64,000 nt of DNA from Thiobacillus denitrificans DSM 12475 (lineage in GTDB: Bacteria; Pseudomonadota; Gammaproteobacteria; Burkholderiales; Thiobacillaceae): positions 153,895 to 217,894 of the forward strand of contig NZ_AQWL01000003.1 of the NCBI RefSeq assembly GCF_000376425.1, given 5' to 3'. Position 1 is the first letter of the stretch. Each line of letters starts with the position of its first letter. The translations under genes were made by a program, and so were the position numbers. Of this stretch, positions 6,601-27,505 are shown one piece after another. The notes under the pieces are model-generated. The model searched no databases, was not told the DNA's origin, and worked only from the letters and a program-made list of their open reading frames with translations.

Positions 6601-7440
6601 ATGAAAATACTCAATCATCGGCTGACACGGGACGATGGATCTGCGCTGGCTTATCTCGCCAGCCCACACGTTGGAAAAACCATTTCACCCCGTTTTCTGA
6701 TCCTTCATTACACCGCCGGCAGCAGTGCGGCCGGCACGGTGGCCTGGTTCCGCAACCCGGCTTCCCGCGTTTCCGCTCACCTGGTCATCGCACGCGACGG
6801 CTCGGTGACCCAACTGGTACCGTTCGACCGCGAAGCCTGGCATGCCGGCCAGTCGCGCTGGGGCAGCCTGTCAGGACTCAACCGCTACAGCATCGGTATC
6901 GAACTCGACAATGCCGGCTGCCTGATCCGTAGCGGCGGCAAATGGATCTCCCCGCTCAGCCGCCGCAGCTATCCCGACAGCGAGGTCACCGTCGCCTGCC
7001 ACCGCCACGACCCGCCCGGCACTCCGCCCTGTGGCTGGCACAGCTACACGCCGGAACAGATCGAAGCCACGCTGGAATGCAGCATGGCGCTGATCGATCA
7101 ATACGGTCTTGCCGACGTGCTGGGGCACGAGGATATTGCGCCCGGACGCAAGCGCGATCCGGGCCCGGATTTCCCACTCGAATCGGTACGCGCACGTCTG
7201 CTGGGACGCGGCAACGACCATCCCGAGCGCTACCGCACCACCGCCCGGCTGTATGTGCGGAACGGGCCCGGCCCCGAGCATGCCGCCCTGCCCGGCACCC
7301 CCCTGCCCCCCGCCACCGAGGTCGAGGTCCTGGCCAAACGGGGCCTGTGGTGGGAAGTCGACGTCGCCGGCGAGGTCAACGGCGTAATGGATATCGTCGG
7401 CTGGTGCCACAGCAAATATCTGAAAGCGATCGATGTCTGA
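6601..7440 (+). CDS. AmpD-like N-acetylmuramoyl-L-alanine amidase with SH3 domain
   Basis: A 279-residue amidase_2 protein. The zinc ligands expected from AmpD are present: His36 in FLILHYTAG, His176 in VLGHEDIAPGRK and Asp186 in RDPGPDF, with Glu101 in GIELDN as the likely catalytic acid. Residues about 212-279 form a bacterial SH3 domain (TARLYVRNGPG to VGWCHSKYL), which in other amidases helps bind cell wall. No signal peptide is visible. The enzyme should cleave the muramyl-L-alanine bond of peptidoglycan or muropeptides. It is the first gene of the large operon and overlaps the patatin gene by 8 bases. Confidence 0.88.
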   Translation: MKILNHRLTRDDGSALAYLASPHVGKTISPRFLILHYTAGSSAAGTVAWFRNPASRVSAHLVIARDGSVTQLVPFDREAWHAGQSRWGSLSGLNRYSIGIELDNAGCLIRSGGKWISPLSRRSYPDSEVTVACHRHDPPGTPPCGWHSYTPEQIEATLECSMALIDQYGLADVLGHEDIAPGRKRDPGPDFPLESVRARLLGRGNDHPERYRTTARLYVRNGPGPEHAALPGTPLPPATEVEVLAKRGLWWEVDVAGEVNGVMDIVGWCHSKYLKAIDV

Positions 7441-10135
7441 TGCGCCGACCTCGCTCGACTGGGATACCGTCCACGCACAGGAACGCGCGACCATCCGCGA
7501 ACCCGACAACCGCCACGACGGACCCGACCGGCCGCTGACCGGGCTGGCCTTCTCCGGCGGCGGCATCCGCAGTGCCACCTTCAATCTCGGCATCACCCAG
7601 GCGCTGGCAGAACTGCGGCTGCTGCGGCAGTTCGATTACCTGTCGTGCGTCTCGGGTGGCGGCTACATCGGGGGCTGGCTGTCGGCCTACATCCATCTCA
7701 AGTGCAACGGCCGCGTCGAGGACGCCGAGCCGCAGCTGCAGAGCGGCGGCCTGGAAAACCCCGCGATCCGTTTCCTCCGAAGCTACAGCAATTACCTCAC
7801 CCCCAAGGCCAGCTTTTTTTCCGCCGACACGCTGACCGCGGTGGCCACCTATCTGCGCAACCTCTATCTCAACCTCGTCCTGCTGTTGCTGACGCTCGGT
7901 GGGCTGCTTCTGCTGCCGCGCCTGCTGGTGTGGTTCGTCCGCTGGCTCACCGGTTGGGAAGGCGCTCACGCCACAACCGACGCCAGTCTGCTGCCGCTGT
8001 TCGGCGGCGGCATCCTGCTGATCGTCATGGCCATGCTGGTCATCGGCCTCAACCTGGGCAGCCGCGGCGCATTCAAAAGCCGGCCGTTCTACACCCGCCA
8101 GGCCGGCGTGCTGGCGCTGGTGGTGCTGCCGGTGCTGCTGTCAGCCTGGCTGATTGCCTATGGCTTCTATGCCGGCGCGGCAAAGCTGGACCGGATTTCG
8201 CTCGGCGGTTGGGTGCTGTGGGGCATGCTGGTCTATGTTCCGCCCTGGCTGATAGGCTGGGCGCTGGGACGGTTTTTCGGCCACCGCACGGACGATCAGC
8301 CGCGGTTCAGCCTGGGGCGCATCGTCGCCATGGGCGGCTACGCACTGCTGGCGGGGGCGCTCGGCGGCCTGCTGCTCGCCGCGTTTGCCGAGCTGACGGA
8401 ATGGATCCGGCAGGTAGGCACCGGCTACAGCGGTTCGTGGATCGCATCGGCACTCGCCACCGCTTTGCTGCTGAAATTCTATTCACTCACGGTAGTGGCC
8501 CACATCGGCCTGATGGGGCGATATTTCTCGCACGATTCGCGCGAATGGTGGTCCCGTCTCGGTGGCTGGATATTGCTGGCGGCGCTGGTGTGGGCCACCC
8601 TGTTCAGCATCGTCTACATCGCTCCGGCCTTCTTCCGCTGGGCGCCCGAGGCCTTCGTCGCAGCGGGCGGCCTGGCCTGGGTACTGTCGACTCTCAGCGG
8701 TGTATTGCTGGGACGCGCAGGGAAAACCGCCGGCGACACCCGAAAAACCTGGCGTGATCGCGCCGCCCAGGTGATGCCTTATGTCTTCGTCGTCGGCCTG
8801 CTGGGACTGCTGTCGTTCGGCCTGCATCAACTGTTGATGCTGCCGGTGTTCTGCGCCGGATGCGAGGAGCATGTCCGCACTTCCACACAGTTCATGGAGG
8901 TGCTGCGGCAGGAAGCGGTCAACTTCCAGCGTCCCGCCATCGCGTGGGTGGCGATCCTGTGCATCGGCAGCCTCGCGGCCGCCACCGCGCTGGCATGGCG
9001 CATCGACGTCAACCTGTTCTCGATCTATCACTTCTACCGCCAGCGCCTGGTGCGCAGCTATCTCGGTGCCTCGCGCTGCAAGCTGCGCGTACCGCACCCG
9101 TTCACCGGTTTCGACCCGCGCGACGACCTCAAGCTGGCCGACCTCTGCAGCATGCCGCTGGGCCAGCCGCAATGCCAGCGTCCCTACCCCATCCACAATA
9201 CCGCGATGAACCTGGTTGCCGGCAAGCAGCTCGCGTGGCAGGAACGGCGTGCCGCCGCGTTCGCCTTTACTCCCATGGCCTGCGGCTACAGCTTCACCCT
9301 GCCTGATGAAAAGGGCCAGCTGCTCAGCCATTACCGCCCCACCGCGCAGTATATGGAAGGCGTGTGGTTGGGATCGGTGATGGCGATCTCGGGCGCCGCC
9401 GCCTGCCCCAACATGGGCTACCACAGCTCACCCGCGCTGACCTTCCTGATGACCGTGTTCAACGTCCGGCTCGGCCACTGGAGCCCCAATCCGGCCAGCG
9501 AAAAACACTGGACCAAACACGACCCGCCGTTCGGCGGCATCTACCTGTTGAGCGAACTGTTCGGCCAAACCCAGTACAGTTCGCCGTTCGTTTATCTGTC
9601 CGACGGCGGCCATTTCGAGAATCTCGGGATCTACGAACTGGTGCGACGACGCTGCACCTGCATCGTCGCCATCGACGCCGGTGAGGACGGCGACAGCCAT
9701 TTCGAGGATCTCGGCAACGCCATCCGCAAGTGTTATGCCGATTTCGGCGTGGTCATCGACATTCACGCCGAAGACCTCGAAAGCGGCTATTCCGCCATCG
9801 GCCGCATACGCTATCCGCCCCGTGCAGGAAGTCAGGAACAGCCTGCGGAAGGCCATCTGATCTACATCAAGCCGCGGCTCACCGGCACCGAGCCCGCCGA
9901 CCTGCTCAACTACAAGTGCACCCACTCCGGATTTCCGCATGAATCGACAGCGGATCAATGGTTCGACGAATCGCAGTTCGAGAGCTACCGCAAGCTCGGC
10001 CACTACATCGGCAAGGCGGTATTCGACGCGGCACTGATCGAAACCATCCAGCGCCAGGAGATGGCTGGCGACAGTGGACCGGTGCTGCCGTGGCTGTGCG
10101 AAATCCTGCGCGAGCGGCGCGATGAGAGCGCTTGA
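7433..10135 (+). CDS. Patatin-like phospholipase with inserted membrane domain
   Basis: A 900-residue protein with a split patatin domain. The oxyanion-hole motif SGGGIRSATF is at residues 41-50, the nucleophile Ser74 lies in SCVSGGGYIGG, and the catalytic Asp724 lies in YLSDGGHFENLGIYEL. Between them, roughly residues 130-530, are about ten hydrophobic helices, so the catalytic halves are joined by a polytopic membrane domain. Family members hydrolyse acyl chains from membrane lipids. Its start overlaps the amidase stop, which implies translational coupling. No N-terminal signal peptide is seen, which suggests the catalytic halves face the cytosol. Confidence 0.86.
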   Translation: MSDAPTSLDWDTVHAQERATIREPDNRHDGPDRPLTGLAFSGGGIRSATFNLGITQALAELRLLRQFDYLSCVSGGGYIGGWLSAYIHLKCNGRVEDAEPQLQSGGLENPAIRFLRSYSNYLTPKASFFSADTLTAVATYLRNLYLNLVLLLLTLGGLLLLPRLLVWFVRWLTGWEGAHATTDASLLPLFGGGILLIVMAMLVIGLNLGSRGAFKSRPFYTRQAGVLALVVLPVLLSAWLIAYGFYAGAAKLDRISLGGWVLWGMLVYVPPWLIGWALGRFFGHRTDDQPRFSLGRIVAMGGYALLAGALGGLLLAAFAELTEWIRQVGTGYSGSWIASALATALLLKFYSLTVVAHIGLMGRYFSHDSREWWSRLGGWILLAALVWATLFSIVYIAPAFFRWAPEAFVAAGGLAWVLSTLSGVLLGRAGKTAGDTRKTWRDRAAQVMPYVFVVGLLGLLSFGLHQLLMLPVFCAGCEEHVRTSTQFMEVLRQEAVNFQRPAIAWVAILCIGSLAAATALAWRIDVNLFSIYHFYRQRLVRSYLGASRCKLRVPHPFTGFDPRDDLKLADLCSMPLGQPQCQRPYPIHNTAMNLVAGKQLAWQERRAAAFAFTPMACGYSFTLPDEKGQLLSHYRPTAQYMEGVWLGSVMAISGAAACPNMGYHSSPALTFLMTVFNVRLGHWSPNPASEKHWTKHDPPFGGIYLLSELFGQTQYSSPFVYLSDGGHFENLGIYELVRRRCTCIVAIDAGEDGDSHFEDLGNAIRKCYADFGVVIDIHAEDLESGYSAIGRIRYPPRAGSQEQPAEGHLIYIKPRLTGTEPADLLNYKCTHSGFPHESTADQWFDESQFESYRKLGHYIGKAVFDAALIETIQRQEMAGDSGPVLPWLCEILRERRDESA

Positions 10136-10193: not shown

Positions 10194-12770
10194 ATGAAGA
10201 CTTCGTTCTGGCTAGGCACCCTCAGTATCGCAGCCATCGCCGCACTGGCCTGGCTCACCCACCAACCCGAAACCGCACGCGCCACTTTGCCGGCAGCAGC
10301 CGAAGCGGCACTTGCCGCGCCCGCCACGACCGGGCCTTCCGCTTTTCCCTACACCGACGCCGGCTTCCACGAAGCCGAAGCCGGCTTGTCTCCCTCGGCA
10401 CGTGCCGGCCGCGAAATCTGGTTCAAGGCCACCGCCGGTAACGCGCGCTTCCATACCTACACCTTCCAGCAACGCATCACCGCGCTGATCGACTGGTACG
10501 GCGTGCTGCGTGGGGATGCACGCGACACCCGCTTCAAGACCTGGGGGTTGATCAACGACCCCGGCTGCTGCACGCCGGGTTCCACCGGCTGTCCTGCCAA
10601 AAGCGCCGAAGAGACCTACGGCTTCGACTGGTGCCCCGGCGACGAGACCCTGCTGAAGTTTGTCGGCAAGCCGGGCTATCGCGACCCTGCCTGCGACTTC
10701 AAGGACGCCAGCGTCGCCGCCAGCGATCCCGCTGGCCACCAAAAAGGCCGCGAGGACAGCTGCAACCTGGCTTTCGGCACCTCCACCGGTGCGCTCGGTT
10801 TCCGCAAGTTTCCCAACCCGCGTTTCGATGCGGCGGCGTGGAAGCAGGTCAACGGCCGCCTCGGCAGCTGGGAAGGCTACAACCGCAAACTGTCCAACGA
10901 CCCCGCGCGTTCCGATTTCAAGGTACGCAAACTGGCCGATGCCTCGATCGAACCGCCTTTCCTGATCGGTACCGCGTGCGCCTCCTGCCACGTCGCCTTC
11001 AATCCGGCCAGGCCGCCGGCGGACCCTGAACACCCGAAATGGGAAAACCTCTCCGGCCTGGTCGGCAACCAGTACATCCGCGTCTCCGAGATCCTCATCT
11101 CCGGCATGCCGCACGACGACCTGCTGTGGCAGGTCTTCGCCCACGCCCGCCCCGGCACTTCCGACACCTCGGCGATCCCCAACGACCAGGTCAACAATGC
11201 CGGCACCATCAACGCGCTGATCAACATTGCGCAGCGTCCCACCTTCGCGGGCGAGAAGGTCAACCGCTGGCGCAAGGTCGCGGCGTGTCCGGCGGGCGCG
11301 AAGAGCCAGGACCCATCGGCTGGTGCGACATGCTGGTGCGAACCCGGCAAGGCAGGCAAGTGCTGGGAAAAGAGTGTGAAAACCGAGACCGTCCATCACA
11401 TCCTCAAGGGCGGCGGCGACTCGATCGGCGCACTCGGCGCGATCCAGCGCGTCTACTTCAACATCGGCTCGTGCGCCGAGCAGTGCTGGGTCAACCACCT
11501 CACCGACCTGCGCCAGCTCGACCCGCAGGCCCGCAACTTCGGCCAGACACCATTCGACATCGGCCAGTGCCGGCGCGACTGCCCCAACTTCCGCGCGGTG
11601 GAAGACCGCCTGCACAACATCCTCGACTTCTTCCTCACTGCACCCGAAGGCCAGGCGCGCGACCTCGCCGATGCGCGCGCCAACCAGCATGGCACTACCT
11701 ACGTTCAGGCCGATCTGGTGCGCGACCTCGAACGCGATTTCGGCCCGAACGCAGTCTCGCGCGGCCAGCAGGTGTTCGCCGCCAACTGCGCGCGCTGCCA
11801 TTCCAGCGGCAAACCACCGTTCGAGGCCATCGATTTCCGCGCCATCGACAGCAAGACCGGCCTGCGCGCCGACTGGCTGGGCAACGACGTGCCGACCCCG
11901 GTCACCGAAGTCGGCACCTACCGTTGCCGCTCGCTGCACGCCAACCATATGCGCGGCCACGTCTGGGAGCAGTTCGCCAACGAGGACTACCACGCCCGCA
12001 AGACCGTGTCCGGCATCCTCGAACCGCACGACGGCGGGCGCGGCTACTACCGCAATATTTCGCTGCTGAACCTGTGGGCGCACGCCCCCTTCCTGCACAA
12101 CAACTCGGTCGGCCCCGAGCTGTGCGGCTGGGGCGGCGACAAGGCCAATCCCCGTGAGCTGTACCGCTCCAGCTACGTTGACACCCGGCAGCCCGGCAAC
12201 CCGCCGCTGGCGCGGGACAGGCAGCCGGCATGCTGGGCCTACGATCCCTCGGTCGACGGTCGCTTCAAGCTTTATGTCGCGTCGATGAACGACCTGCTCA
12301 ATCCGTCGAAACGCATTCCCAAGGCGACCAAGGTCGACCAGGACATCGTGCTCGATATCGGCCCGCGCATCTTCGACGGCAAGGAGGAAAAACGCCTCGT
12401 CGGCTTCACCGTGCGGGTGCCGGCAGGCGCCACCGCGGGCAATGTCGGCAACTTCCTCCACAAGAATTTCATCGTCGACCTGGTGCGCGCCAAACTCAAA
12501 CCCGGGGAGCTCGAAGCGCGTCTCGCCACCGTGCTGCCCGCAGCCGAGGCCAGGAAGCTTGCGGACGAAATGCAGGCCATCGGCAAAGCCATCGTCTCCG
12601 ACCCCGACCGCCTGGTCGAGGTGGTGAAGGAGGCACGCGCCCGCACCCCTGCGCTATGGCAGGTCTATTCGTCGTGCAGCGCGGAAATCGAGAACGACGG
12701 CCACCGCTTCGGCGAGGACCTGTCCCACGCCGACAAGAACGCGCTGATTGCCTTCCTGGCCACGCTCTGA
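10194..12770 (+). CDS. Large exported di-haem c-type cytochrome
   Basis: An 858-residue protein with an N-terminal signal or anchor helix (residues about 5-22) and two haem c sites, CASCH at residues 262-266 and CARCH at 532-536. After the second haem it has LNLWAHAPFLHNNSV, similar to the APYLHNGSV motif of RoxA-like and di-haem peroxidase-like proteins, including the two downstream paralogues. It is also rich in other Cys (GCCTPGSTGC, CWCEPG) that could form disulfides. CAGGAGAG precedes the chosen ATG. Likely periplasmic; activity (peroxidase, oxygenase or electron carrier) cannot be decided from sequence. Confidence 0.82.
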   Translation: MKTSFWLGTLSIAAIAALAWLTHQPETARATLPAAAEAALAAPATTGPSAFPYTDAGFHEAEAGLSPSARAGREIWFKATAGNARFHTYTFQQRITALIDWYGVLRGDARDTRFKTWGLINDPGCCTPGSTGCPAKSAEETYGFDWCPGDETLLKFVGKPGYRDPACDFKDASVAASDPAGHQKGREDSCNLAFGTSTGALGFRKFPNPRFDAAAWKQVNGRLGSWEGYNRKLSNDPARSDFKVRKLADASIEPPFLIGTACASCHVAFNPARPPADPEHPKWENLSGLVGNQYIRVSEILISGMPHDDLLWQVFAHARPGTSDTSAIPNDQVNNAGTINALINIAQRPTFAGEKVNRWRKVAACPAGAKSQDPSAGATCWCEPGKAGKCWEKSVKTETVHHILKGGGDSIGALGAIQRVYFNIGSCAEQCWVNHLTDLRQLDPQARNFGQTPFDIGQCRRDCPNFRAVEDRLHNILDFFLTAPEGQARDLADARANQHGTTYVQADLVRDLERDFGPNAVSRGQQVFAANCARCHSSGKPPFEAIDFRAIDSKTGLRADWLGNDVPTPVTEVGTYRCRSLHANHMRGHVWEQFANEDYHARKTVSGILEPHDGGRGYYRNISLLNLWAHAPFLHNNSVGPELCGWGGDKANPRELYRSSYVDTRQPGNPPLARDRQPACWAYDPSVDGRFKLYVASMNDLLNPSKRIPKATKVDQDIVLDIGPRIFDGKEEKRLVGFTVRVPAGATAGNVGNFLHKNFIVDLVRAKLKPGELEARLATVLPAAEARKLADEMQAIGKAIVSDPDRLVEVVKEARARTPALWQVYSSCSAEIENDGHRFGEDLSHADKNALIAFLATL

Positions 12771-12780: not shown

Positions 12781-13746
12781 ATGTTTCCATCTGTTCGAGA
12801 TCAACACACGCCCGACCCGAGATGCTGTTGCGGCGGGCTCAGTCCGCGTTGCACGGGAAGCCACGATGTGCTGCGTCTGGTGATGGCTGTACTGCTTCTG
12901 CTGCCGCTGATCCTGATGCTTTCCGGCTGCGACAAGCTCAACGACTGGTTCGGCAACAAGCCCGACATCGCGTTCGCCCCCTACGGCGACGATTACGCCA
13001 GCAAGCCGGACTTCGCGCAGGTCGAATACGCGCACCCGATTCCGCTCGCCGAGCTCGCCAAGGTCACGCCCAAATATCTCGCCGGCCTGAATCAGGAAGA
13101 GCTCGACCAGCTGTACGCCCGGTTGAGCTCGGGGCCGATTCCCGACGGGCCGTTCGACGGCGAGATCGTCTTTCCGCGCGGCAGTTCGGGCAAGATGCGT
13201 GCCGCCGAAATCATCGGCGGACTCAAGGGCCTGGGGGTAAACTTCAAGGGCAGGATGCTGGAAACCGCAGGCGAGACGCTGTGGAAAGGCAAGGTGTTCT
13301 ACCGCGGCCAGAAAGTGCTGCGCAACCGCATCCAGGACCTCACCGCGCTGCGGCCGGTGATCGGCCCGGGCGACATTCCCAAGATCGACGTCGACGGCCG
13401 CGATGCCTGGCTGCTGTTTCCGGCCAAGCTCTATTGCGGGCAAAGCCTGATCGACTCGCGTCGCGAATCGATCATCATCGACTACGCCTTCACCGACGAA
13501 ATCCGGGGCTACCGCGAGAAGCCCGATTTTCTCGCCGGTCGCCGCGGCCTCAGGGTGCGCGACGAAATCCGCATGGTACGGCCCGGCCTGTATCTCGGCC
13601 GCGCCTACATGGACCACGTCTTCATCCTCAATTTCGTGCTCGCCAACAAGGATCTCGACCGGGCCGGCCGCGCCGAATTCGAGACCGGACAGGTACGCGA
13701 CGACTGCTGGTCCGGCACGCAGAAACGGGTGCTGGCAGCACGCTAG
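12781..13746 (+). CDS. Putative lipoprotein of unknown function
   Basis: The 321-residue frame has a hydrophobic stretch ending in the lipobox LSGC (AVLLLLPLILMLSGC), so the mature protein is probably lipid-anchored in the periplasm. The ATG at 12781 has GGAGACC in front, but gives a 34-residue Cys/Pro-rich leader; GTG 12868 or ATG 12883 would give a classic lipoprotein signal. The C-terminal half (IIIDYAFTDEIRGY, RVRDEIRMVRPGLYLGRAY) looks like a small beta-barrel, but I cannot name the family. It lies between two di-haem cytochrome genes with gaps of 10 and 4 bases. Confidence 0.72.
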   Translation: MFPSVRDQHTPDPRCCCGGLSPRCTGSHDVLRLVMAVLLLLPLILMLSGCDKLNDWFGNKPDIAFAPYGDDYASKPDFAQVEYAHPIPLAELAKVTPKYLAGLNQEELDQLYARLSSGPIPDGPFDGEIVFPRGSSGKMRAAEIIGGLKGLGVNFKGRMLETAGETLWKGKVFYRGQKVLRNRIQDLTALRPVIGPGDIPKIDVDGRDAWLLFPAKLYCGQSLIDSRRESIIIDYAFTDEIRGYREKPDFLAGRRGLRVRDEIRMVRPGLYLGRAYMDHVFILNFVLANKDLDRAGRAEFETGQVRDDCWSGTQKRVLAAR

Positions 13747-18264: not shown

Positions 18265-18328
18265 GCGCGAGAGTGACCGATCGCACGCGAGCGGCCATGG
18301 CCTCCTGATGGAATTGGAAGGAGAAGAC

Positions 18329-19303
18329 ATGCATACCAGTCAAACGATCTTCGTTTATCGCTTGCGACGATTCCGCGGCGTTGCCGCACGTGTCCTCACG
18401 GCCGGGTTGCTCGGATTCGCGGGATCGAGTGCGGGCGGCACGTACGACGGCCCGACCGAATCGATACCCAAACCCGCGCCTGAACAAAGCAAACCCTCCG
18501 GGGGAGGGGGAGGCGGCGGATTTTCCTTTGGCATCGACCTCACCTGTCTCTTCACTGGCTGCGGCAAGGACAAGACGACCTCGACCACGCCCGGCGACGC
18601 CGCACAGTTAGCCAAGTCGGGGCCGAAAATCCCCGACAAGTACTCCATGAGCGGGCTCGTCATGCAAGCGCTGGTCAAGGGCGGCGCGCCCTTCGTCATT
18701 GATTACGACGCCCGCCAGGCTCTGCTGAGGATCGAAATGAAGGTGCAGGGATCTGATCCTTTCGTCTACAACCTCAAGGCGAACGGCCCGGCGCAGAAGA
18801 TCTTCCGCTTGCCCGAGTCCTTCGGCGCCGAGCCCAGGGCAGCGGTGATTTCGGTGCGTTCGGTGAAGGACCAGCCGGGTGCGGAAATGCCCGCTCCGCT
18901 GCGGATCAATGGAATGGGCATGGGCGAAAAGGCGGTCGGCTCGGTGGCCATCGACCAGGTCAGCTTCGGCCCGCCGGAAGTGCGCATCGGGCGCTTCGGA
19001 AAAGCGCGCTACAGCTTCCATTCGCGCTCGGATTTCAACAAGGTCGTCGCCGAATTCGCCCGGCTGGAAAACCGCGACGGCATCATCCAGGTGGTCGAGC
19101 GCGTCTACAAGGATGACCTCGGCGAACTGACGCGCGACACCTGGATCGGACGTGACAAGCCGCGCATCTGGGACGGCAAGGGCGAAGATGGCGAAGTCTC
19201 CAAGGGCCTTCACGTACTCAACGTTCGCGCCTGGCGCAGCTCGGTCAAGGAAGGTGACTGGGTGGTGTCCTGGTCGCCAGACTGGGTGGACGTCAAGTGG
19301 TGA
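18329..19303 (+). CDS. Exported protein with FlgD-like Ig fold, unknown function
   Basis: A 324-residue protein with a probable signal sequence (RVLTAGLLGFAGSSAGG), a Gly-rich linker near residue 57 and two nearby Cys (CLFTGCG). The C-terminus, WIGRDKPRIWDGKGEDG followed by KGLHVLNVRAW, matches the WDG-x-D-x-x-G-x(5)-G-x-Y pattern of FlgD-type Ig-like domains, although no flagellar genes are near. GGAAGGAG at 18316-18323 fixes the start. It ends by overlapping the next gene. I do not recognise the middle region. Confidence 0.7.
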   Translation: MHTSQTIFVYRLRRFRGVAARVLTAGLLGFAGSSAGGTYDGPTESIPKPAPEQSKPSGGGGGGGFSFGIDLTCLFTGCGKDKTTSTTPGDAAQLAKSGPKIPDKYSMSGLVMQALVKGGAPFVIDYDARQALLRIEMKVQGSDPFVYNLKANGPAQKIFRLPESFGAEPRAAVISVRSVKDQPGAEMPAPLRINGMGMGEKAVGSVAIDQVSFGPPEVRIGRFGKARYSFHSRSDFNKVVAEFARLENRDGIIQVVERVYKDDLGELTRDTWIGRDKPRIWDGKGEDGEVSKGLHVLNVRAWRSSVKEGDWVVSWSPDWVDVKW

Positions 19304-20367
19304 GCCTGGCCTGGCTCCTGCAACGCGGGGGGCAACAGGTTCTCGCGCTCACCGCGCTCGTCGCGCTTGCCACAGGTCATTACGTGCTGAGCCGCCTGCC
19401 GCTACCCGTCATGCTGGAAAACGCGGGACAGTTCGAGGCCGGTTCCACATCCGAATTCGTCATTGACCAGACGCTCGCGCAGCCGAGCCTGCTTCTCGTG
19501 TTCGAGGGCGAAGTCGGGGACGCGGTAGACCTGCGCTTCGACCGCGCCCGGCTTCAGGAGAGCACGGCGCGCCTGCTCGAACATCTTGGCGTGAGCCTGC
19601 CCGCGGGTGACCATCCCGTGAGTCTCCTCACCAGCCAGGCAGAGAAGGCGAAGACCTTCCTCCGCATCTCGGTGGTGCCGATCCCGGGACAGGCCTCGCG
19701 CGTGACCCTCAAGACGCCCCGCGAGGCCGGCGATTCAGGCCTTGCCCTCATCCTGCGGGCCGACGGGGCGCGCCTAGCGGTGAGCGCCCTCAGTGCGGGT
19801 GACCCGTCGCCCGACGCGCCGCCGCCACAGCGGATACTGCGTCTGGGCGGACGGCCGCTGCCCGTGCTGAGCGGCGCCGTCCCGCTCTCCATGCTGGCTG
19901 CGGCAGGCAGTGAAATCCGCCTGCGCATCACCCCCGCGGATCGTGGCTGGGAGGATGTTCCGCGCCTGGCGCTGGCGCCTACCGACCAGCGCGATGCGGC
20001 ATTGAGCGCCTTCGGCATCGGCGTGCGTGCAGGCCGGGAAAGTCAATTCACCGACTACGCCTGTGCCGCAGGCTCACGCCTGCCCCTCGCCAACCCCGGC
20101 CGGCTGGCCGATGGGCGCTGCGCTGGGGGTGAAGGGATGCTGCGGCTCGTCTCGCTCGGATTTCGGCCAGGTCTGTTAAGCGTCCAGGCTTCCGGCTTGG
20201 CCTGGGTGAGAAAGGACGGCGCGGTGCATACCCTCGATCTTGTCGCCTGGCTGAAAGAGAACCCGATCCTCGCAACCCTGATCGGTGCGCTCGATGCCGC
20301 TGTGCTCGCGTGGTGCAAACAGTTGTTTTTCGGCGGCGGGTGGCGTCTGGGCAGGGGCAGTGACTAG
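19297..20367 (+). CDS. Membrane-anchored periplasmic protein of unknown function
   Basis: A 356-residue protein starting at GTG 19297 or 19300, overlapping the upstream stop codon. It has an N-terminal helix (VLALTALVALATGHYVL) and a hydrophobic C-terminal helix around NPILATLIGALDAAVLAW, with a beta-rich region between. Two Cys pairs (YACAAG, GRCAGG) may form a disulfide. I do not recognise the family. Tight coupling to the FlgD-like gene suggests the two products work together. Confidence 0.68.
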   Translation: MVSLAWLLQRGGQQVLALTALVALATGHYVLSRLPLPVMLENAGQFEAGSTSEFVIDQTLAQPSLLLVFEGEVGDAVDLRFDRARLQESTARLLEHLGVSLPAGDHPVSLLTSQAEKAKTFLRISVVPIPGQASRVTLKTPREAGDSGLALILRADGARLAVSALSAGDPSPDAPPPQRILRLGGRPLPVLSGAVPLSMLAAAGSEIRLRITPADRGWEDVPRLALAPTDQRDAALSAFGIGVRAGRESQFTDYACAAGSRLPLANPGRLADGRCAGGEGMLRLVSLGFRPGLLSVQASGLAWVRKDGAVHTLDLVAWLKENPILATLIGALDAAVLAWCKQLFFGGGWRLGRGSD

Positions 20368-20457: not shown

Positions 20458-22479
20458 ATGACCACGAAAACCGCACCCGCAAAATCCGCCGACCAGCCGC
20501 TCAAGGCCAGTTCCGAAAAAGCCACCGGCCAGCGGCTCGATGCCTTCCCCGACCGCATCGACCTGCGCGACTGGTTTTATCAGCCTGCGCTGATTTCGCT
20601 GCCCGACTCGCTGGTGAGTTGCGCGTTCATCAAGCCGGCGATGATCCTCGATCAGGGACGCGAAGGCGCCTGCACCGGCTTTGCGCTGGCGGCGGTGGTG
20701 AACTTTCTGCGTGCCAAGCAGAAGCGGACCGCCATCGTCAGTCCGCGCATGCTGTACGAGCTGGCGCGGCGCTACGACGAATGGCCGGGCGAGGCCTACG
20801 AGGGCTCTTCCGCGCGCGGCGCGATCAAGGCCTGGGCCAAGCACGGCGTGTGTCTGCGCTCGTCGTGGAAGGACGACCAGCACGGCATCACGCACATGAG
20901 CGATGCCATCATCCGGCAGGCGATGGCGGCGCCGGGCGGTGCCTACTACCGCATCCGCCCTTACAACGTGCGCGACATGCATACCGCGCTCAATGAAACC
21001 GGCATTCTCTACGCCACCCTGATGGTGCACTCGGGCTGGGCCAATCCGGGTGGCGGCAAGGGCGACAAGCCGGTTCCGGTCAGCCATGTGCACCGCGGCC
21101 GCAAGCTCACGCTGAAGCTGCCGGTAATCAAGCGCAGCGGCAGTGCCGACGGCGGCCACGCCATCGCCCTCGTCGGCTACACCCCGCAGGGTTTCATCAT
21201 CCAGAATTCCTGGGGGCCAGGCTGGGGCGCCGGCGGCTTTGCGCTGCTGCCCTATGAGGATTTCCTGCTGCATGCCACCGATGTCTGGGTGACACAGCTC
21301 GGCGTGCCGGTGACGATGGACCTCTGGGCGGACGATAAGACCATCGACACCGCCGGCATCCAGCGCGCCAGCCGCACCATCCCGCTGGCCGATATCCGGC
21401 CCTACGTCATCGACGTCACCAACAACGGCGAGCTGTCCGATTCCGGCGAGTACTGGACCACCGAGCCCGACATCGAACGCCTGTTCACGGAAACCATTCC
21501 GGTCAAAACGCGCGGCTGGAAAAAACGCCGCATCCTGTTGTATCTGCATGGCGGCCTCAACTCCGAATCCGGATGCGCCAAGCGCATCGTCGCCATGCGC
21601 GACGTCATGCTGGAAAACGAGATCTATCCGCTGCACATCATGTGGGAGAGCGATTTCCTCTCCAGCGTCGCCGGCCTGTTCGAGGACCTGTTCACCAAGG
21701 CCGACACGCTTGCCGGCGGCGGCTTCCTGGAAAATCTCACCGAGGCCAAGGACCGCGTGCTGGAACTCACGCTCGCTCGCGCGGGGTTTCGGCTGTGGGG
21801 CGAAATGAAGGAAAACGCGCAACTCGCCTCCGTCCACCCCCACAACAAGGGCGCCATCCAACTCGTCGCGCAGTACGTCGAACTGGCCAAGAAAAATTTG
21901 GCCAGCCACGATAAGACCGGCTGGGAACTGCACATCGTCGGCCATTCGGCGGGCAGCATCTTCGCCGCCCACGCGCTGCCACTGCTGTCGAACCTGGGCA
22001 TCCCGTTGAAGAGCGTGCAGTTCCTCGCCCCCGCCATCCGCACCGACACCTTCAAGAACCTGCTGCTGCCCAGCCTGGAAGCCGGCCTCACGCCGCTGCC
22101 CAGCCTGTATATCCTGTCGGACAAGCTGGAACGCGACGACAGCGTCGGCCCGTATGCCAAGTCGCTGCTCTATCTCGTGTCCAACGCCTTCGAAGGCACG
22201 CGCGGGGTGCCCATACTGGGAATGAAGGCCTGCCTCGACGCCGATCCGGCGCTCGCCGGTCTGTTCAGTGGAAACGTCGACGGCCGCCCCGCGCTGGTGG
22301 TGTCCGAGGGCATCCCGATCGACCCCGCCCAGGAGATCGCGGCCATCAAGCAGGGGGCCGCCGTCAGCCACAGCCACGGTGGCTTCGACAACGACCGCGC
22401 CACCATGAACTCGGTGCTCGTCCGCATCCTCGGCAGCGTGCCGAAACGGCTGTTCAGCGCGCGCGACCTGCATTACTGA
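20458..22479 (+). CDS. Papain-like peptidase fused to an alpha/beta-hydrolase
   Basis: A 673-residue two-domain protein. Residues about 30-280 are a C1-type peptidase: Gln66 and Cys72 in DQGREGACTGFALAA, His234 in GGHAIALVGY and Asn250 in QNSWGPGWG form the expected catalytic set. Residues about 350-650 are an alpha/beta-hydrolase with oxyanion HGG in LLYLHGGLNS and nucleophile Ser497 in GHSAG; His at SHSHGG is a candidate third residue. There is no signal peptide. The first domain would cut peptides and the second an ester or amide. I know of no characterised protein with this pairing. It starts 90 bases after the previous gene. Confidence 0.84.
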   Translation: MTTKTAPAKSADQPLKASSEKATGQRLDAFPDRIDLRDWFYQPALISLPDSLVSCAFIKPAMILDQGREGACTGFALAAVVNFLRAKQKRTAIVSPRMLYELARRYDEWPGEAYEGSSARGAIKAWAKHGVCLRSSWKDDQHGITHMSDAIIRQAMAAPGGAYYRIRPYNVRDMHTALNETGILYATLMVHSGWANPGGGKGDKPVPVSHVHRGRKLTLKLPVIKRSGSADGGHAIALVGYTPQGFIIQNSWGPGWGAGGFALLPYEDFLLHATDVWVTQLGVPVTMDLWADDKTIDTAGIQRASRTIPLADIRPYVIDVTNNGELSDSGEYWTTEPDIERLFTETIPVKTRGWKKRRILLYLHGGLNSESGCAKRIVAMRDVMLENEIYPLHIMWESDFLSSVAGLFEDLFTKADTLAGGGFLENLTEAKDRVLELTLARAGFRLWGEMKENAQLASVHPHNKGAIQLVAQYVELAKKNLASHDKTGWELHIVGHSAGSIFAAHALPLLSNLGIPLKSVQFLAPAIRTDTFKNLLLPSLEAGLTPLPSLYILSDKLERDDSVGPYAKSLLYLVSNAFEGTRGVPILGMKACLDADPALAGLFSGNVDGRPALVVSEGIPIDPAQEIAAIKQGAAVSHSHGGFDNDRATMNSVLVRILGSVPKRLFSARDLHY

Positions 22480-22502: not shown

Positions 22503-23579
22503 ATGCCAGCCGACTTTTCCACCCTGATCGATACCCTTCTGGTGCTGGCCGGCCTGGTGCTGGTGGCCACCGGGCTGGTGATGTTCATCTACAGCAAGAC
22601 CAGCACGCAGGCCTCATCGGTCGAGGCATTCGGCATCAAGCTCAACGTCACCCATCCCTCGCTGATCCTGGTGCTGGCCGGCGTCGGCCTGATGCTGGCG
22701 CCGCGGCTGCTGCCGGGCCTGCCCGGCAAGGAGGACGGCAAGCCGGTGCCGGCCGTTGTTGCCGAAGCGCCTCCCATGGGCGCAAGCCCCGGGACGACGG
22801 CCGTGCCCGTTCAGCCGCCGCCGTCCGTGCCGGCCTCCCCTCCGGCGGCGGCGCCCGCCGTCCCGCTTGCCATTCCCGGCCCACGCATTCCGGCAGCGAC
22901 GGTGCCCCCAGCGAGCGCAACCGCCCGGTCTGCCGTGACGCCTTCTTCCGCACCCGTCCAGCCCGCCCCTGCGGCGAAGCCACGCGCTGTCGCACCTGAA
23001 ACGGCCACCAAAACTCCGGCCCCCAGGGTCGCAACCGCCCGCCCCGCTGCAGCGCCCACGGCGACCATTCGACCGGAGGCTGCCGCCCCTCCACCCGCGG
23101 CAGCCAGGCCGGAGCGTCCGCTGCTCGCCTTCGCCGCACTGGGCCTGCCGATCAATCGTAGTTTCTGGGCCGGCGAAACGCGCGCCAGCTACACGCAGCG
23201 GGTGAACGTCGCCCTGCAACAGGCGGGACGTGACGTGTTGCGCATGGACGCCCGCGGACTGGAGCTGGGGCAGACGGAGTTCAATGCCTGGTGGAACGAA
23301 TCGGGACAGCACCCGCGCAGCCGTGAACTGTGCGACGGATCCCAGGCGCCGCTCGCACTGCTTTCCGCGCGCGTGGAATCGCCGACCAGTATTTCATCCG
23401 TCGAAAGCGCCTACTGGCCGGAATTGAAAATGCGTCTGTACGTCTGCGCCAACCAGCGGCTGTATCGCCAGCAGAAAACGCTGTCGCCGCAGAATGATGA
23501 TGCCTGGCCGTTTGCGAACGAACTCAACAGTGAAATCGAGCGCTTCCTGCGGACGTATCGCGGCGATTTGACGGAGTGA
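22503..23579 (+). CDS. Two-helix membrane protein with Pro/Ala-rich stalk
   Basis: A 358-residue protein. Two hydrophobic helices occupy residues about 8-28 and 48-66, followed by a Pro/Ala-rich, low-complexity stalk of about 130 residues and a compact C-terminal domain from RPLLAFAALGLPINR to the end. That domain has conserved-looking Trp and Cys (WWNESG, LCDGSQ, YVCANQ). The stalk would hold the domain away from the membrane. I do not recognise the family. It lies between the fusion hydrolase and the giant protein in the operon. Confidence 0.68.
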   Translation: MPADFSTLIDTLLVLAGLVLVATGLVMFIYSKTSTQASSVEAFGIKLNVTHPSLILVLAGVGLMLAPRLLPGLPGKEDGKPVPAVVAEAPPMGASPGTTAVPVQPPPSVPASPPAAAPAVPLAIPGPRIPAATVPPASATARSAVTPSSAPVQPAPAAKPRAVAPETATKTPAPRVATARPAAAPTATIRPEAAAPPPAAARPERPLLAFAALGLPINRSFWAGETRASYTQRVNVALQQAGRDVLRMDARGLELGQTEFNAWWNESGQHPRSRELCDGSQAPLALLSARVESPTSISSVESAYWPELKMRLYVCANQRLYRQQKTLSPQNDDAWPFANELNSEIERFLRTYRGDLTE

Positions 23580-23644: not shown

Positions 23645-26600
23645 ATGCCCATATCCGATCCATCCGATCTGCTTGTTTCCGAAGCGCAGCTGCTGCCGCT
23701 GGCCGAGGTTCTCAATCTGCCGCCGGACCGGCTTCTCGGCGTGTCGCCGCAGGCGCTGGCGACCCTGTCGGTGCTCGGCGTGCGCAACGTCTTCGACCTG
23801 GCGATGTCGAGCGTATTCAATGCCGCCGCGCAGATCGAGGATGCCGCCGACAACCCGTCCAATGCGATGAACCGCTTCGGCCGGCCGATTTCGGACCTGC
23901 TCAAACCCGGCATCGCGGGAACCGTCGCCATCCCCGACCTGCGCAACGCGTCGCTCGACATCCTTGCCGATGTCGCCGACGCCGCCGAAATCCAGGCTGC
24001 CCTGGGCGTCATCACGGTACGGGATCTCTCGGTCTATCCGCCGTTTCGCGCCGCCCGTGAAATCCTCAACCGGGTGTTCTTTCCGGAGCAGCTGGAAGCC
24101 TTCGATCCCGAGAGCCCGGCAGACCTGATTCCCAAGTCCGGGGAGTTTCCCACCGAGCGCGTTCAATACACCTCGCTGGTGCTCGACCAGATCCTGCGTC
24201 CGGACAACGCGCCCGCACTGATCGACCTGGCCGGCCCTGACTTTGCGCCGATCGATGCAGCGCAGGTCGCCGATGCCGATTTCGGTTTCAGCACCCTGGG
24301 CCTGGGGATGCTGTTGACCATGAACCAGTCCTGGTTCATGCAGGGCGTGACCCTGGGCCACCTGCTGCACAGCATGGCGCTCGCCGCCGGCGAGAGCACG
24401 CGCATCGCCGTGATCGACTGGAGCCGCAAGACCAGCGCCGGGCAGACCGAAGTGCTCGGCGAGACCGAAGACCTGAGCCAGGAGACCGCCAGAAACCGCA
24501 GCATCAGCGAAGTCACCGAGGCGGTCGCACGCGAGGCCCAGAGCGGGTTCTCGCACACCGAAAGCACGTCGACCACCAAGCAGGCGGGCGCCTCGGCCGG
24601 CATCTCGATCGGGCCGTTCGGCGGCGGCGCCAGCGCGAGCATTTCCAAGACATCGACCTCCGCCGACAGCTACGCGACCAGTGCCGGTAGCCGCGAAGTC
24701 GGGGCATCCATGCTGCAGAACGCCAGCGATCGCACGCACCAGCACGCCCATGCGGCGCGCACCCGCCGCGCTTCGGTCGTGCGCGAAGTCAGCCAGACCG
24801 AGCACGAAAGCGTGTCCACGCGCGTCATCACCAACTACAACCACATGCACGCGCTGACCGTACAGTATTACGAAGTGCTGCAGATCTATCGCACGGAAAC
24901 CTCGCTTACCCGCTGCGACCGGGTGGTGTTCGTCCCGTTCAAACTACTCGATTTCAGCAACGTCGTCCTGCTGCGGCGGTTCCGCGGCGCGCTCGTCGAC
25001 GCGGCGCTCACCCCGGCGGTGCGCGACGCCCTGCTGAACTTCGATACCCTCGAACTGGTTCCCGAACGGCGGGCCGTGTTCCCCGGCCTGGGCGGGTCGA
25101 TCGCGGACATCCTGACCAACCCGCAGGTGATCACGCGCCGGGTGCTACTGGCGCGGCGGCCCCCGGGCGAGGAAGGTGAAACCGGGCCGGAGCCGGACGT
25201 CGACGAAGATCCGCTCCCGCCGCGACCGCCCCGTACGCCGCTGCCCGACGACATCGCCGACAGCCTGTGGGAAAACGCCGCATCAAAACTCTCGGCGTTC
25301 TTCGGCACATCCACGGTGCGTCGCAACTCCCAGTCGCTTTTCGTGCCATCCGATGTGCGGGTCGAGGAAGGCGCGGTGCAGAGCACCGTGCGGACGATCA
25401 GGATGGTGTTCGTGCTGCGCGACGGCACCCGCATCACCGATCTTTCGGCGAGCGTCGCGCTGAGCGAGGTGGACCGCATCGCGCTTTCGGGCAGCGCTCC
25501 TGCCGCCGACGTCGCGGCGACCGGCGTGCTCGCCCTGTCCCGCAACGGCATCGTCTTTCCGCTCGAACTGCCGACGGTCACCGTGGCCAGGGGCGCCACG
25601 GAAACGAAGCTCATCGACATCCGCGCGGCCGGCGCGGATGTCAACCTGACCCAGCATCTGGCGGACAACCGTCTTCACTACAGCCAGGCGGTGTTCCGCA
25701 ATCTGGATTCGGCGATGATCGCCGGCCTGCTTTCACCGTTCAGCATCACGATGAATGGCCAGCCGTTCCCGCTGGTGCAGGTTGCCGAGCCGATCCCCCT
25801 GCGCATCGTCGGCAACGCGCTGGCGTTCAAGATCAACACCGATCCGGTTAACGACGCCGAATGGCGGACGTTCATGGCGGATCGCGGCCTGACCATCGGC
25901 CAGGCCAAGGTCGACATCGTTCCGCTGTCGAGCGGCGGAATCTTTGCCGAAGCCGTGCTGGGCCGCTTCAACTGCGCCGAGCGGCTCGACCTCTCGCGCT
26001 TCTTCAACTGGCAGGACTCGCCGATCCCGATCCAGCCGACGGACATCGCGGCAATCCAGACCGGGACCCGGGCGCAGGCGGAGAACCTCACCCCCGGGCA
26101 GTTCAGCTCGCCGCTGGTCAACATCACGCCTTTCGGCGCGCTGCCCGACCCGACCGGGATGGCCGGCGCGCTCGCGGCGATCCAGAACGGCAATATGTTC
26201 CGCGACATGAGCGGTCTTGCCGACACGATCAAACTCGCCACCGAAACCGCGAAACTCTCGGCGGCGGGGGCCACCGCCGTCGGTCAGCAGGCCGGCGAAG
26301 CGATGAAGACCGCGGTCAGCGCCGATACCGAGCGGCGCAAGATCGCGGCCGATCTTGAAAAAGCGAAGGTGCAGGCGGCGACCGACCTGGCCAAGGCCAA
26401 GCTCGGCAAGTCGATCCAGGACAAGAACATCACCGAGGCCGGCGCCGTCGTCAACAAGGAAGAGGAACTCAAGAAGAAGCAGCAGGAGCAGGCGAAGGCC
26501 GCCGGCGCCGGCGGGTCGCCCGGCGGAAGCGGTGGAGGATCGTCCGGCGGGGCTACGAGCGGCGGAGGCAGTGGAACCGGGGGCGGGGGCGGGAGCGTTA

Positions 26601-27505
26601 CCGGTGGAGTCCCGGCCGCGGCGCCCCGCTCGACCGGAAATTCGGCCCTCGACCGCATCATCGGCAACGACGAGACACTGCGCTCGTTCGTCGGCCTGTC
26701 GGCCGACTCGCCGGCGCCGACCCCGGCAGTCACCGACGAGGGCGTCCCGCTGCAGACCTGGGATGTCAATGGACCGACGTCATTCATGATCACGCGCTCG
26801 CCGACCGAGGAGCCGGACTTTCCGACGCTCGACGACATCAAGAAGATCATCGCCAAGGGCAACTTCGTTCCGCGCTCGGAAGACCTGAAGACGCTGCTGC
26901 TCGGCGAGCGCAAGGTACCCGCGACCGGATTCGACACCCTGCTGAGATCGCTCTCGCTGGTCCCCGCAGGCAGCGTGAAAATCTTGAACATCGTCGCCAT
27001 CTGCCAGAGCACGGTCAGCCTCGATCTTCTTTCGGAGACCGTCTTCACGGCCGCGGGCGATCTCGGCGACCGCCCCGACCCCACGGGTGAACGCCCCCTG
27101 CAAAACCTCACGCTGGCCGAAGCGGTCGCGCTGCTCGCGGCTCCCGAGTTCAACGTGGAGACGATGGCGGTGAAGTTGAGCGACGTACGCAAGGCATTCC
27201 CGGTCGACGGCGAAGTCCGCATCTTCAACATGTTCAACCCGCTGCGCGAGGATTTCGTCCAGGCGCTGGCCAACGTGTTTCAGGTGCGAACGAGCGCCTT
27301 CGCGCGCAAACCCGTCCGCGTCCTGGCAACGGTGATCGCCGAAACCGGGGAAACCGAGGAGACGCTCGACACGGCCGTGCTCGCGAAGAAGGTCACCATC
27401 GGCTTCTTCGGCGACCCGGTGCCGTTCGAGGCCGATTTCTTCGAGCACCTGTTGCAGCAGGACCGCGCCCAGACCGGTCTGTTCACGGCCTTCCCGCGGC
27501 GCTAG
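23645..27505 (+). CDS. Giant 1286-residue protein of unknown function
   Basis: The last gene of the operon. Residues about 20-140 hold helix-hairpin-helix-like repeats (LLGVSPQALATLSVLGV and similar). Residues about 230-430 form a distinctive block: MALAAGESTRIAVIDWSR, a Ser/Thr-rich and Gly-rich segment, then VVREVSQTEHES and NYNHMHALTVQYYEV. A Pro-rich linker near residue 515, a beta-rich middle, a charged coiled-coil near 900-950 and a Gly/Ser-rich linker near 955-1000 precede a C-terminal domain. No signal peptide or membrane helix is seen. A scaffold or surface-assembly role is possible, but this is inference. Its stop shares CTAG with the convergent VOC gene. Confidence 0.78.
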   Translation: MPISDPSDLLVSEAQLLPLAEVLNLPPDRLLGVSPQALATLSVLGVRNVFDLAMSSVFNAAAQIEDAADNPSNAMNRFGRPISDLLKPGIAGTVAIPDLRNASLDILADVADAAEIQAALGVITVRDLSVYPPFRAAREILNRVFFPEQLEAFDPESPADLIPKSGEFPTERVQYTSLVLDQILRPDNAPALIDLAGPDFAPIDAAQVADADFGFSTLGLGMLLTMNQSWFMQGVTLGHLLHSMALAAGESTRIAVIDWSRKTSAGQTEVLGETEDLSQETARNRSISEVTEAVAREAQSGFSHTESTSTTKQAGASAGISIGPFGGGASASISKTSTSADSYATSAGSREVGASMLQNASDRTHQHAHAARTRRASVVREVSQTEHESVSTRVITNYNHMHALTVQYYEVLQIYRTETSLTRCDRVVFVPFKLLDFSNVVLLRRFRGALVDAALTPAVRDALLNFDTLELVPERRAVFPGLGGSIADILTNPQVITRRVLLARRPPGEEGETGPEPDVDEDPLPPRPPRTPLPDDIADSLWENAASKLSAFFGTSTVRRNSQSLFVPSDVRVEEGAVQSTVRTIRMVFVLRDGTRITDLSASVALSEVDRIALSGSAPAADVAATGVLALSRNGIVFPLELPTVTVARGATETKLIDIRAAGADVNLTQHLADNRLHYSQAVFRNLDSAMIAGLLSPFSITMNGQPFPLVQVAEPIPLRIVGNALAFKINTDPVNDAEWRTFMADRGLTIGQAKVDIVPLSSGGIFAEAVLGRFNCAERLDLSRFFNWQDSPIPIQPTDIAAIQTGTRAQAENLTPGQFSSPLVNITPFGALPDPTGMAGALAAIQNGNMFRDMSGLADTIKLATETAKLSAAGATAVGQQAGEAMKTAVSADTERRKIAADLEKAKVQAATDLAKAKLGKSIQDKNITEAGAVVNKEEELKKKQQEQAKAAGAGGSPGGSGGGSSGGATSGGGSGTGGGGGSVTGGVPAAAPRSTGNSALDRIIGNDETLRSFVGLSADSPAPTPAVTDEGVPLQTWDVNGPTSFMITRSPTEEPDFPTLDDIKKIIAKGNFVPRSEDLKTLLLGERKVPATGFDTLLRSLSLVPAGSVKILNIVAICQSTVSLDLLSETVFTAAGDLGDRPDPTGERPLQNLTLAEAVALLAAPEFNVETMAVKLSDVRKAFPVDGEVRIFNMFNPLREDFVQALANVFQVRTSAFARKPVRVLATVIAETGETEETLDTAVLAKKVTIGFFGDPVPFEADFFEHLLQQDRAQTGLFTAFPRR

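Follow-up and report, generated by a model that had tools for sequence, protein, structure and literature searches.

A conserved block of envelope di-haem genes in Thiobacillus denitrificans that may carry exchangeable effectors

In Thiobacillus denitrificans DSM 12475, twelve genes (g01 to g12, Table 1) follow one another on the forward strand between positions 6601 and 27505 of the window, that is, the whole stretch of 64,000 nucleotides analysed here, part of a contig of 432,554 bases in a genome of 3.6 Mb. Their products combine hydrolases that could act on the cell envelope with multi-haem proteins, and the locus raises the question of whether they form one system and what such a system would do. 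Neighbouring genes overlapped slightly or were spaced by at most 90 bases, and two CxxCH sites were found in each of g03, g05, g06 and g07 (eight in total), in agreement with a preliminary description of the locus, whose list of parts proved right. That description had also suggested that the operon might be an undescribed system, a proposal that held for g03 to g07, found in the same order at many other loci, but not for the other genes, which were accessory and variable. Tentatively, and at somewhat below an even chance, we read the run as a conserved envelope redox module (g03 to g07) that would carry exchangeable effectors, perhaps as a stress or conflict system.

The recurring unit was delimited with g03, aligned with four distant relatives from rhizobial plasmids, as the query in a scan of one genome per species. 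The best 80 of the 370 relatives found were kept, with flanks of up to 10 kb on either side of g03, which is present in all 80 loci by construction of the sample. These loci reach about 4 kb past g07, and genes positioned like g11 or g12 could escape detection in them. Gene calls came from a simple script, which picks the longest frames with a weight for third-position G+C and therefore misses genes and sets some starts wrongly; g07 of L217 and L210, for example, was detected by profile search only.

Of the 80 loci, 58 had the five genes on one strand in the order g03-g04-g05-g06-g07. When the count is confined to the 57 loci that extend 6.5 kb or more past g03, the full set was present in 54, the exceptions being L072, which ends early after insertions, and L084 and L089, which have g03 to g05 and in which the same search did not find g06 or g07. 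One locus, L097, contained all five plus an additional g07-like match. The closest relatives belonged mostly to Thiobacillus or Hydrogenophilales, and full cores were found in Thiobacillus, Thauera, Denitromonas, Aromatoleum, Zoogloea, Accumulibacter and Rivibacter, and likewise in Pseudomonas fluorescens, Povalibacter, an uncultured Steroidobacter and a metagenome-assembled genome (MAG) of the Moraxellaceae. The genes g03 to g07 are passed on together in many genera of the proteobacteria, and one refutation proposed earlier, a lack of co-occurrence of at least three of the genes outside close relatives, therefore fails. The distribution was patchy: the g03 profile matched 5 of 398 genomes of the phylum and the g05 profile 2 of 398, and a strong g07 match was present in 18 of 399 genomes of the order, including two of the four genomes of the window's genus. 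A single conserved twelve-gene system was rejected, as the recurring unit is g03 to g07 and the other genes vary between loci.

The genes that accompany the core differed from locus to locus. The commonest noncore families in the 80 loci were a LysR regulator, scattered over 16, and the g02-type patatin, present in 17 by clustering and upstream of the core in 18 by search. In the block of twenty loci closest to the window (L071 to L090, with g03 identities of 82 to 91%), the accessory genes encoded an amidase, a metalloprotease, a patatin, an alpha-amylase, a beta-propeller lipoprotein, a FecR-like protein, a C1 peptidase/hydrolase and a stalk protein, in varying combinations and in some cases within the core. 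The labels FecR-like, Tpx-like, QueF-like and beta-propeller lipoprotein were given by eye, and the FecR-like protein gave no Pfam match.

Downstream of the core, 53 loci had g07 and at least 1.5 kb past it, and in 25 of these a same-strand gene of at least 100 residues began within 250 bases. Pfam was run on 20 downstream genes from 16 of the 25 loci and on g09 of L101; the other nine loci start with g10, FecR-like or Tpx-like genes. TIR_2 domains were encoded within two genes 3' of the core in L101, L124, L125, L127 and L129, and a TIR gene was inserted between g04 and g05 in L106. Several of the TIR proteins were membrane spanning in design, with the TIR domain followed by a segment and then by LCCL repeats (L125) or CHASE2 (L127). 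Caspase genes were present in L083, where the N-terminal part is alpha/beta-hydrolase-like by eye, and in L149, with DUF7379. The remaining effector-type neighbours were a PLD protein (L138), an alpha/beta hydrolase (L130), a second patatin (L088) and an M48 peptidase (L093). Antagonism, one of the functions suggested earlier, gains support from the TIR, caspase and patatin neighbours.

The TIR and patatin neighbours were then set against the genome background. The internal control comprised 1363 called frames from 94 loci (80 plus 14) and five TIR examples, and TIR and patatin genes were searched across the loci with a few examples as queries (phmmer, E 1e-5). The 14 further loci, each with a strong g07 match, came from the 399 genomes of the order and leave out L207 and L209, whose contigs equal those of L075 and L091 in length, and L223, which has a different layout. 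Ten TIR proteins were found in the 94 loci. One is the gene inside the core of L106 and seven lay within the first two genes past the core (L101, L124, L125, L127, L129, L208 and L217, the last two from the second sample); the remaining two were 1.4 kb past the core in L144 and 8 kb before it in L143. The second sample also yielded three patatins, encoded by the next, convergent gene in L214, by a gene whose start overlaps the g07 stop by 4 bases in L216, and by an upstream gene in L222. Its other nine loci had neither TIR nor patatin, three of them (L213, L218 and L221) with less than 1 kb past g07.

For the background, 18 core-bearing genomes (about 85 Mb) gave 70 TIR_2 and 100 patatin places. 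The set consisted of 12 of the 18 genomes with a g07 match (G345, G370, G1028, G1035, G1061 and G1232 were omitted) and six others, and gene numbers assume 0.95 gene per kb. A TIR gene was present within two genes 3' of g07 in 3 of the 18 (G283, G744 and G1281), against about 0.03 expected for two genes and 18 cores; the expectation for one gene after each core was 0.016, with P 6e-7. A patatin gene adjoined the core in 6 of the 18 (G000, G1268, G1110, G1220, G301 and G296), against about 0.04 expected, and four cases remained when same-genus pairs were counted once. TIR and patatin genes thus stand beside the core far more often than the genome background would give.

For their part, g08 and g09 tie the run of the window to these other versions. 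Their relatives lie directly 3' of g07 in L101 (Cognatazoarcus), L129 (a Rhodocyclaceae MAG) and L208 (same order), and in all three the g09 relative runs on into a TIR domain. The g09 of the window stops short of that domain, and the g10 peptidase-hydrolase fusion comes next. L093 has a g08 match without g09, and searches of plasmids with g08 and g09 as queries found nothing. The recurrence of the g08-g09 pair is the clearest sign that the run in the window may be one version of a core-plus-effector arrangement.

On this reading, the di-haem proteins would act in the periplasm on peroxide, or on oxidised or unsaturated lipid, and the lipoprotein g04 would hold or deliver their substrate. The state of the module might be relayed across the inner membrane to the effectors by g08-g09 or by other membrane proteins, and the effectors would then attack membrane lipid or protein or, in the case of TIR, perhaps NAD+. 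In the window, the effector role would fall to g01 (amidase), g02 (patatin) and g10 (C1 peptidase/hydrolase), and the outcome would be a damaging response triggered by stress or an invader. Other bacterial conflict systems also pair a peptidase with an alpha/beta hydrolase, as in g10, L083 and L149, according to the accessible part of PMC7159879. A stronger form of the proposal is possible, if doubtful: a c-type haem envelope module would act as the trigger of regulated cell damage or immunity, and its TIR, caspase, patatin and protease effectors could stand in for one another.

Several observations weigh against an effector system. In 28 of the 53 loci with room past g07, no same-strand gene was found within 250 bases, and the core is therefore often alone. 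Some of the genes that do adjoin it are not effector-like, such as the Tpx-like gene 3' of the core in six loci (Zoogloea or Proteobacteria), ApbE in L095 and L120 (with an M20 peptidase next in L120) and GGDEF/EAL and kinase genes in L099; further noneffector neighbours were an acetyl-CoA hydrolase after g09 (L101), DUF6603 (L082) and a family-free protein before g10 (L075). The alpha/beta hydrolases of L168 and L217 appear by eye to be lipoprotein-like, i.e., not cytosolic. No PADLOC model matched the ten window proteins submitted (all except g04 and g06), and among ten accessory genes of other loci PADLOC gave only TIR, caspase and weak PLD-like (DrmC and MkoB) matches. The genome of the window has no TIR_2 match anywhere, g09 of the window has no membrane segment by hydropathy, no nucleoside triphosphatase or second-messenger gene was seen in the run, and the rhizobial form described below, with GMC and flavin oxidoreductases, looks metabolic.

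What the core itself may do was approached through its di-haem proteins. In Pfam, g03 matched Cytochrom_C, and g06 and g07 matched RoxA-like_Cyt-c above the cut-off; g05 gave nothing above cut-off, and g04 had no family in Pfam or NCBIfam. The NCBIfam model NF040606 (di-heme cytochrome c peroxidase, cut-off 150 bits) was passed by g06 (205.2 bits) and g07 (170.1 bits); g03, at 29.9 bits, fell below it, and g05 had no match. The relation of g03 to these di-haem peroxidase/RoxA-like proteins is weak. A MauG/RoxA-type His motif is shared by g03, g06 and g07, and among solved structures the profiles of g06 and g07 came closest to RoxA (4B2N), with alignments that take in the MauG motif and the region of the C-terminal GHxF. 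The NCBIfam cut-offs for RoxA, RoxB and RoxC (900 to 1000 bits) were far from reached, the best scores being 73.1 for g06 (RoxC), 70.5 for g07 and 16.1 for g03; the RoxB of Povalibacter, used as a positive control, scored 1084 bits. The preliminary description had offered use of a hydrophobic polymer as one possible function; use of rubber finds no support in these scores and was rejected. Povalibacter uvarum (G745; L200 to L202 and L120) has a RoxB above the curated cut-off, a RoxA-like protein and the five-gene core, and was the sole RoxB match at E 1e-30 among the 117 genomes of its order sample; given its RoxB and RoxA-like genes, it may be a rubber degrader.

The residues between the haems were compared by column. 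At the position of RoxA W302 (counted by eye), Trp was found in all 25 g06 rows, and g07 had F in 13, W in 7, Y in 3 and L in 1 (n = 24). At F317 (also by eye), g06 had F in 20, L in 4 and Y in 1 (n = 25), and g07 had L in 22 and I in 2 (n = 24). At F301, His was present in 25 of 25 g06 rows, and g07 had Asn in the 22 nonrhizobial rows but His in both rhizobial rows. As a check on this mapping, the columns were read in the RoxA (FW) and RoxB (FV, with Val replacing Trp) of Povalibacter and in a PA2077/PA2078-like pair (QW and QS, with the haem sites 245 and 235 residues apart), in agreement with the accessible parts of PMC4496055 and PMC6311187. In a 35-row tree, separate groups were formed by g06 (98/96), g07 (89/44), the Rox pair (100/100) and a FadCcp-like pair (100/100), which joined five Pseudomonas rows of 600 to 650 residues and not g06 or g07; support at the deepest fork was weak (23/98), and Rox and FadCcp stood on long branches, which calls for caution over long-branch effects. 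In motif, g06 and g07 thus resemble di-haem enzymes of the MauG/RoxA type but, by the tests made, they are neither rubber oxygenases nor FadCcp.

More distant forms of the module were met on rhizobial plasmids. In L063 and L064, an NADH:flavin oxidoreductase, a g06-like protein, a small protein, a g07-like protein, a g03-like protein, a GMC oxidoreductase and a patatin were encoded in one run (L063:9844-22195 and L064:9831-22208), and Rhizobium leguminosarum plasmid pRL11 is annotated with a matching run of genes (L206:6541-18893). Sinorhizobium B11 has the rhizobial run up to the GMC gene, with a C1 peptidase/hydrolase nearby and divergent. The g06-like protein was closest to g06 (45%) and the g07-like protein to g07 (38%). 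Compared with the core of the window, the rhizobial module likewise holds g06, g07 and g03 homologues in one run, followed by a patatin in two of three examples; the third, Sinorhizobium B11, has the C1 peptidase/hydrolase nearby. The module differs in its order (g06-g07-g03), in having no g04 or g05 match, in a patatin of other architecture and in its GMC and NADH:flavin oxidoreductases. No functional study of the rhizobial plasmid module was met in the literature search; in the accessible part of PMC7105596, the GmcA study in R. leguminosarum concerns gene pRL100444 and not the pRL11 module.

Distant pairs were also found, g03-like with GMC genes in L166, L167 and L168 and g03-like with g05-like genes in L169, and a g02-type patatin lay near g03-like and GMC genes in L062, L070 and L168. 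In L167 (13570-18029), the g03-like and GMC genes are followed by a short g04-like frame (29%), a gene, a DyP-like peroxidase and a further gene. One alpha/beta-hydrolase family (mutual E 1e-44 or better) adjoins the core or the g03-like pair in three genomes distant from one another (L130, L166 and L168).

The first alternative to an effector system is lipid oxygenation in the periplasm, in which g06 and g07, together with g03 and g05, would dioxygenate unsaturated fatty acids or isoprenoids and rearrange them, after the model of PA2077/PA2078 and RoxA, in a catabolic or oxylipin operon where the patatin supplies acyl chains and the other hydrolases process the products. The motif PYLHNGSV in g06 and g07, the inter-haem Trp of g06, the affinity of both profiles for RoxA (4B2N), the patatins near g03-like genes in the block of the window, on rhizobial plasmids and in G086, and the GMC and flavin oxidoreductases of the rhizobial form all point this way. 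However, g06 and g07 branch apart from the Rox and FadCcp rows, and at F301 they have His and mostly Asn, respectively, with Leu at F317 in g07, where, according to the accessible part of PMC6797691, RoxA changed to Leu or His was strongly reduced or inactive. The same source describes RoxA as lacking acid-base catalysts, unlike related peroxidases and MauG, so that the distal His of g06 would suit peroxide chemistry better than RoxA-type oxygen binding. Lipid oxygenation also leaves the TIR and caspase neighbours unexplained, and we consider it rather unlikely.

Detoxification of periplasmic peroxide or lipid hydroperoxide, by peroxidases reduced from the respiratory chain and with neighbours that are repair or turnover enzymes or hitchhikers, would fit the NF040606 scores of g06 and g07, the Tpx-like gene 3' of the core in six loci and the DyP-like gene near the g03-like gene of L167. 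A block of four large di-haem proteins would nevertheless be unusual for simple detoxification, as a matter of general knowledge, and TIR, caspase, PLD and C1-peptidase genes would not be expected in such an operon, which makes this explanation unlikely. A metabolic core with an insertion hot spot beside it, where the accessory genes have landed as unrelated passengers, would agree with the shifts in accessory content between close relatives, with the 28 of 53 cores that stand alone and with the setting of the window, unlike that of other members of its block, but is highly improbable in view of the same-strand accessories with gaps of about 30 to 60 bases or, in L216, a four-base overlap, of the TIR gene within the core of L106, of the repeated capture of the same few classes and of the g08-g09 pair retained right 3' of the core in four loci (window, L101, L129 and L208).

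Among the accessory genes of the window, on which the effector reading would draw, g01 matched Amidase_2 (E 2.8e-30, with a subthreshold SH3 match and the motif HEDIAPG) and was present in 12 of the 80 loci, every one within the block. The patatin match of g02 reached 26.5 bits, against a Pfam gathering threshold of 27.7 (E 8.5e-6), with the SGGG and DGG motifs present. Peptidase_C1 scored 21.2 bits in g10 (cut-off 20.7), and the motifs QGREGAC, GGHA, QNSWG and GHSAG represent both its peptidase and hydrolase parts. The g10 fusion lay near the core in 6 of the 80 loci, all in the block, as judged from loci that end about 4 kb past g07, and g11 was present in 4 of 80. Nothing in Pfam scored above cut-off in g08, g09, g11 or g12.

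Relatives of g02, g10 and g12 were also found away from the core. The g02-type patatin gave 42 records; of seven regions with the gene (L062 and L065 to L070), two, L062 and L070, also had a g03-like gene and GMC. In the order, the flanks of g10 matches from seven of the eleven other genomes with one contained no core gene, and one such flank (L057) contained an amidase match at 30%. Among the plasmid relatives of g10, one of five regions (from 28 records), that of Sinorhizobium B11, held g03, g06 and g07 homologues; a scan of viral contigs with g10 gave no match. The fusion hydrolase, recommended earlier as a seed for gene-neighbourhood analysis, was thus a poor one. The same was true of the 1286-residue g12, whose relatives occurred in 9 of 274 genomes of the class (its own included) and in 28 plasmid records. 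Its flanks in the other genomes, seven out of eight (all except G268), gave no match at E 1e-3 to any of the remaining eleven genes, with g04 queried in a wrong frame, and g12 was rejected as a marker of the system. It was found in none of the 80 core loci, a count that says little because the loci end before the place of g12 in the window. Three plasmid regions with g12 relatives had no core gene among their neighbours, judged from annotation only. The plasmid relatives included those of Haladaptatus (archaeal, L155), Streptomyces clavuligerus (L156) and Polaromonas (L154), the last with neighbours annotated as HigA antitoxin, type I restriction and TIR.

The layout of the run is given in Table 1. 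By hydropathy, a single N-terminal membrane segment was found in g03, g04, g06 and g07 and two segments in g11; g08 and g09 had none over the threshold, and their export is thus a reading of the sequence by eye. No signal peptide was evident by eye at the starts of g01, g02, g10 and g12, as had been stated for the amidase, the patatin, the fusion hydrolase and the giant protein. A terminator scan of positions 6200 to 26199 gave 15 matches, against 13.9 in shuffled sequences, with one plus-strand match within the run, located in g05; between 26200 and 28800 there were six, every one on the minus strand, against 1.9 in shuffles. A SLAC1-family gene precedes the run. SMC and FGGY-kinase genes were found close to the operon in ten loci of the block, with a QueF-like frame in eight, so that the setting of the window differs from that of its block. 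Further along the window lies a candidate restriction- or methylase-type frame (Table 1).

Table 1. Genes of the run and two other features of the window (positions in the window; assignments predicted from sequence)
Feature	Position	Strand	Place	Description
g01	6601..7440	+	accessory	Amidase_2 (AmpD-like) plus SH3-like; alternative in-frame start at 6526
g02	7433..10135	+	accessory	patatin-like phospholipase; 9 predicted membrane segments between SGGG and DGG motifs
g03	10194..12770	+	core	di-haem, exported; motifs PFLHNNSV, GHRF
g04	12781..13746	+	core	lipoprotein; no Pfam or NCBIfam family
g05	13751..15316	+	core	di-haem; no Pfam family above cut-off
g06	15313..16794	+	core	di-haem peroxidase family, membrane-anchored; PYLHNGSV; inter-haem Trp retained
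g07	16804..18264	+	core	di-haem peroxidase family, membrane-anchored; PYLHNGSV; inter-haem position F/W/Y/L
g08	18308..19303	+		probably exported; recurs with g09 directly 3' of g07
g09	19297..20367	+		putative sensor/adaptor; relatives in L101, L129 and L208 have C-terminal TIR, window copy without TIR
g10	20458..22479	+	accessory	papain-like C1 peptidase fused to alpha/beta-hydrolase-like part
g11	22503..23579	+	accessory	membrane protein, Pro/Ala stalk
g12	23645..27505	+	accessory	1286-residue protein, no family
SLAC1-family gene	5078..6265			precedes the run
1034-residue frame	44744..47848	-		candidate; N-terminus by eye of restriction/methylase type

In the literature searched, no known system was found in which a constant di-haem envelope block is joined to TIR, caspase and patatin genes, and no such operon was met in the open PMC literature by title and start of abstract, a scope that leaves out most subscription papers and all preprints. 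In the accessible parts of PMC7159879 and PMC8195603, the word cytochrome occurs twice and once, respectively, including a passage on the mitochondrial apoptosome and a reference title. If the reading is true, cytochrome-type proteins and caspase or TIR effectors share one bacterial operon. If their coupling is functional, envelope oxidation chemistry as a trigger of intracellular effectors would become testable in Aromatoleum, Thauera and Pseudomonas fluorescens, and a link between c-type haem and caspase-like enzymes outside the mitochondrial apoptosis pathway could be tested in bacteria; if it is not, an operon of four di-haem proteins, kept in many environmental proteobacteria, still awaits its substrate.

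Among known systems, the rubber oxygenases RoxA and RoxB share with g06 and g07 two CxxCH sites, the motif PY(F/L/M)HN(G/A)SV and a C-terminal GHxF, and 4B2N can be aligned with the profiles of both, but g06 and g07 score 50 to 73 bits against cut-offs of 900 to 1000, their distal residues differ and they form a separate branch. PA2077/PA2078 of Pseudomonas aeruginosa (FadCcp, oleate-diol synthase) are likewise adjacent paralogous di-haem proteins of the same superfamily with PYLHNGSV; they also branch separately, their inter-haem motif is QW/QS instead of HW (g06) and N-aromatic (g07), and the 15-kb stretch around the pair (L203) has no further di-haem frame of at least 200 residues. The NF040606 peroxidases include g06 and g07 by score, but not g03 (30 bits) or g05 (no match), and the family name is an annotation. 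The vWA-MoxR ternary and related conflict systems, for their part, resemble the present loci in that a constant core is accompanied by effectors that can be exchanged (TIR, caspase and alpha/beta hydrolase) and in their peptidase and alpha/beta-hydrolase pairs, as described in the accessible part of PMC7159879, but differ in that no MoxR, vWA or STAND Pfam domain is present in the twelve window proteins and in that the core here consists of envelope c-type haem proteins. The enzyme classes of the run are already known, and what would be new is their assembly.

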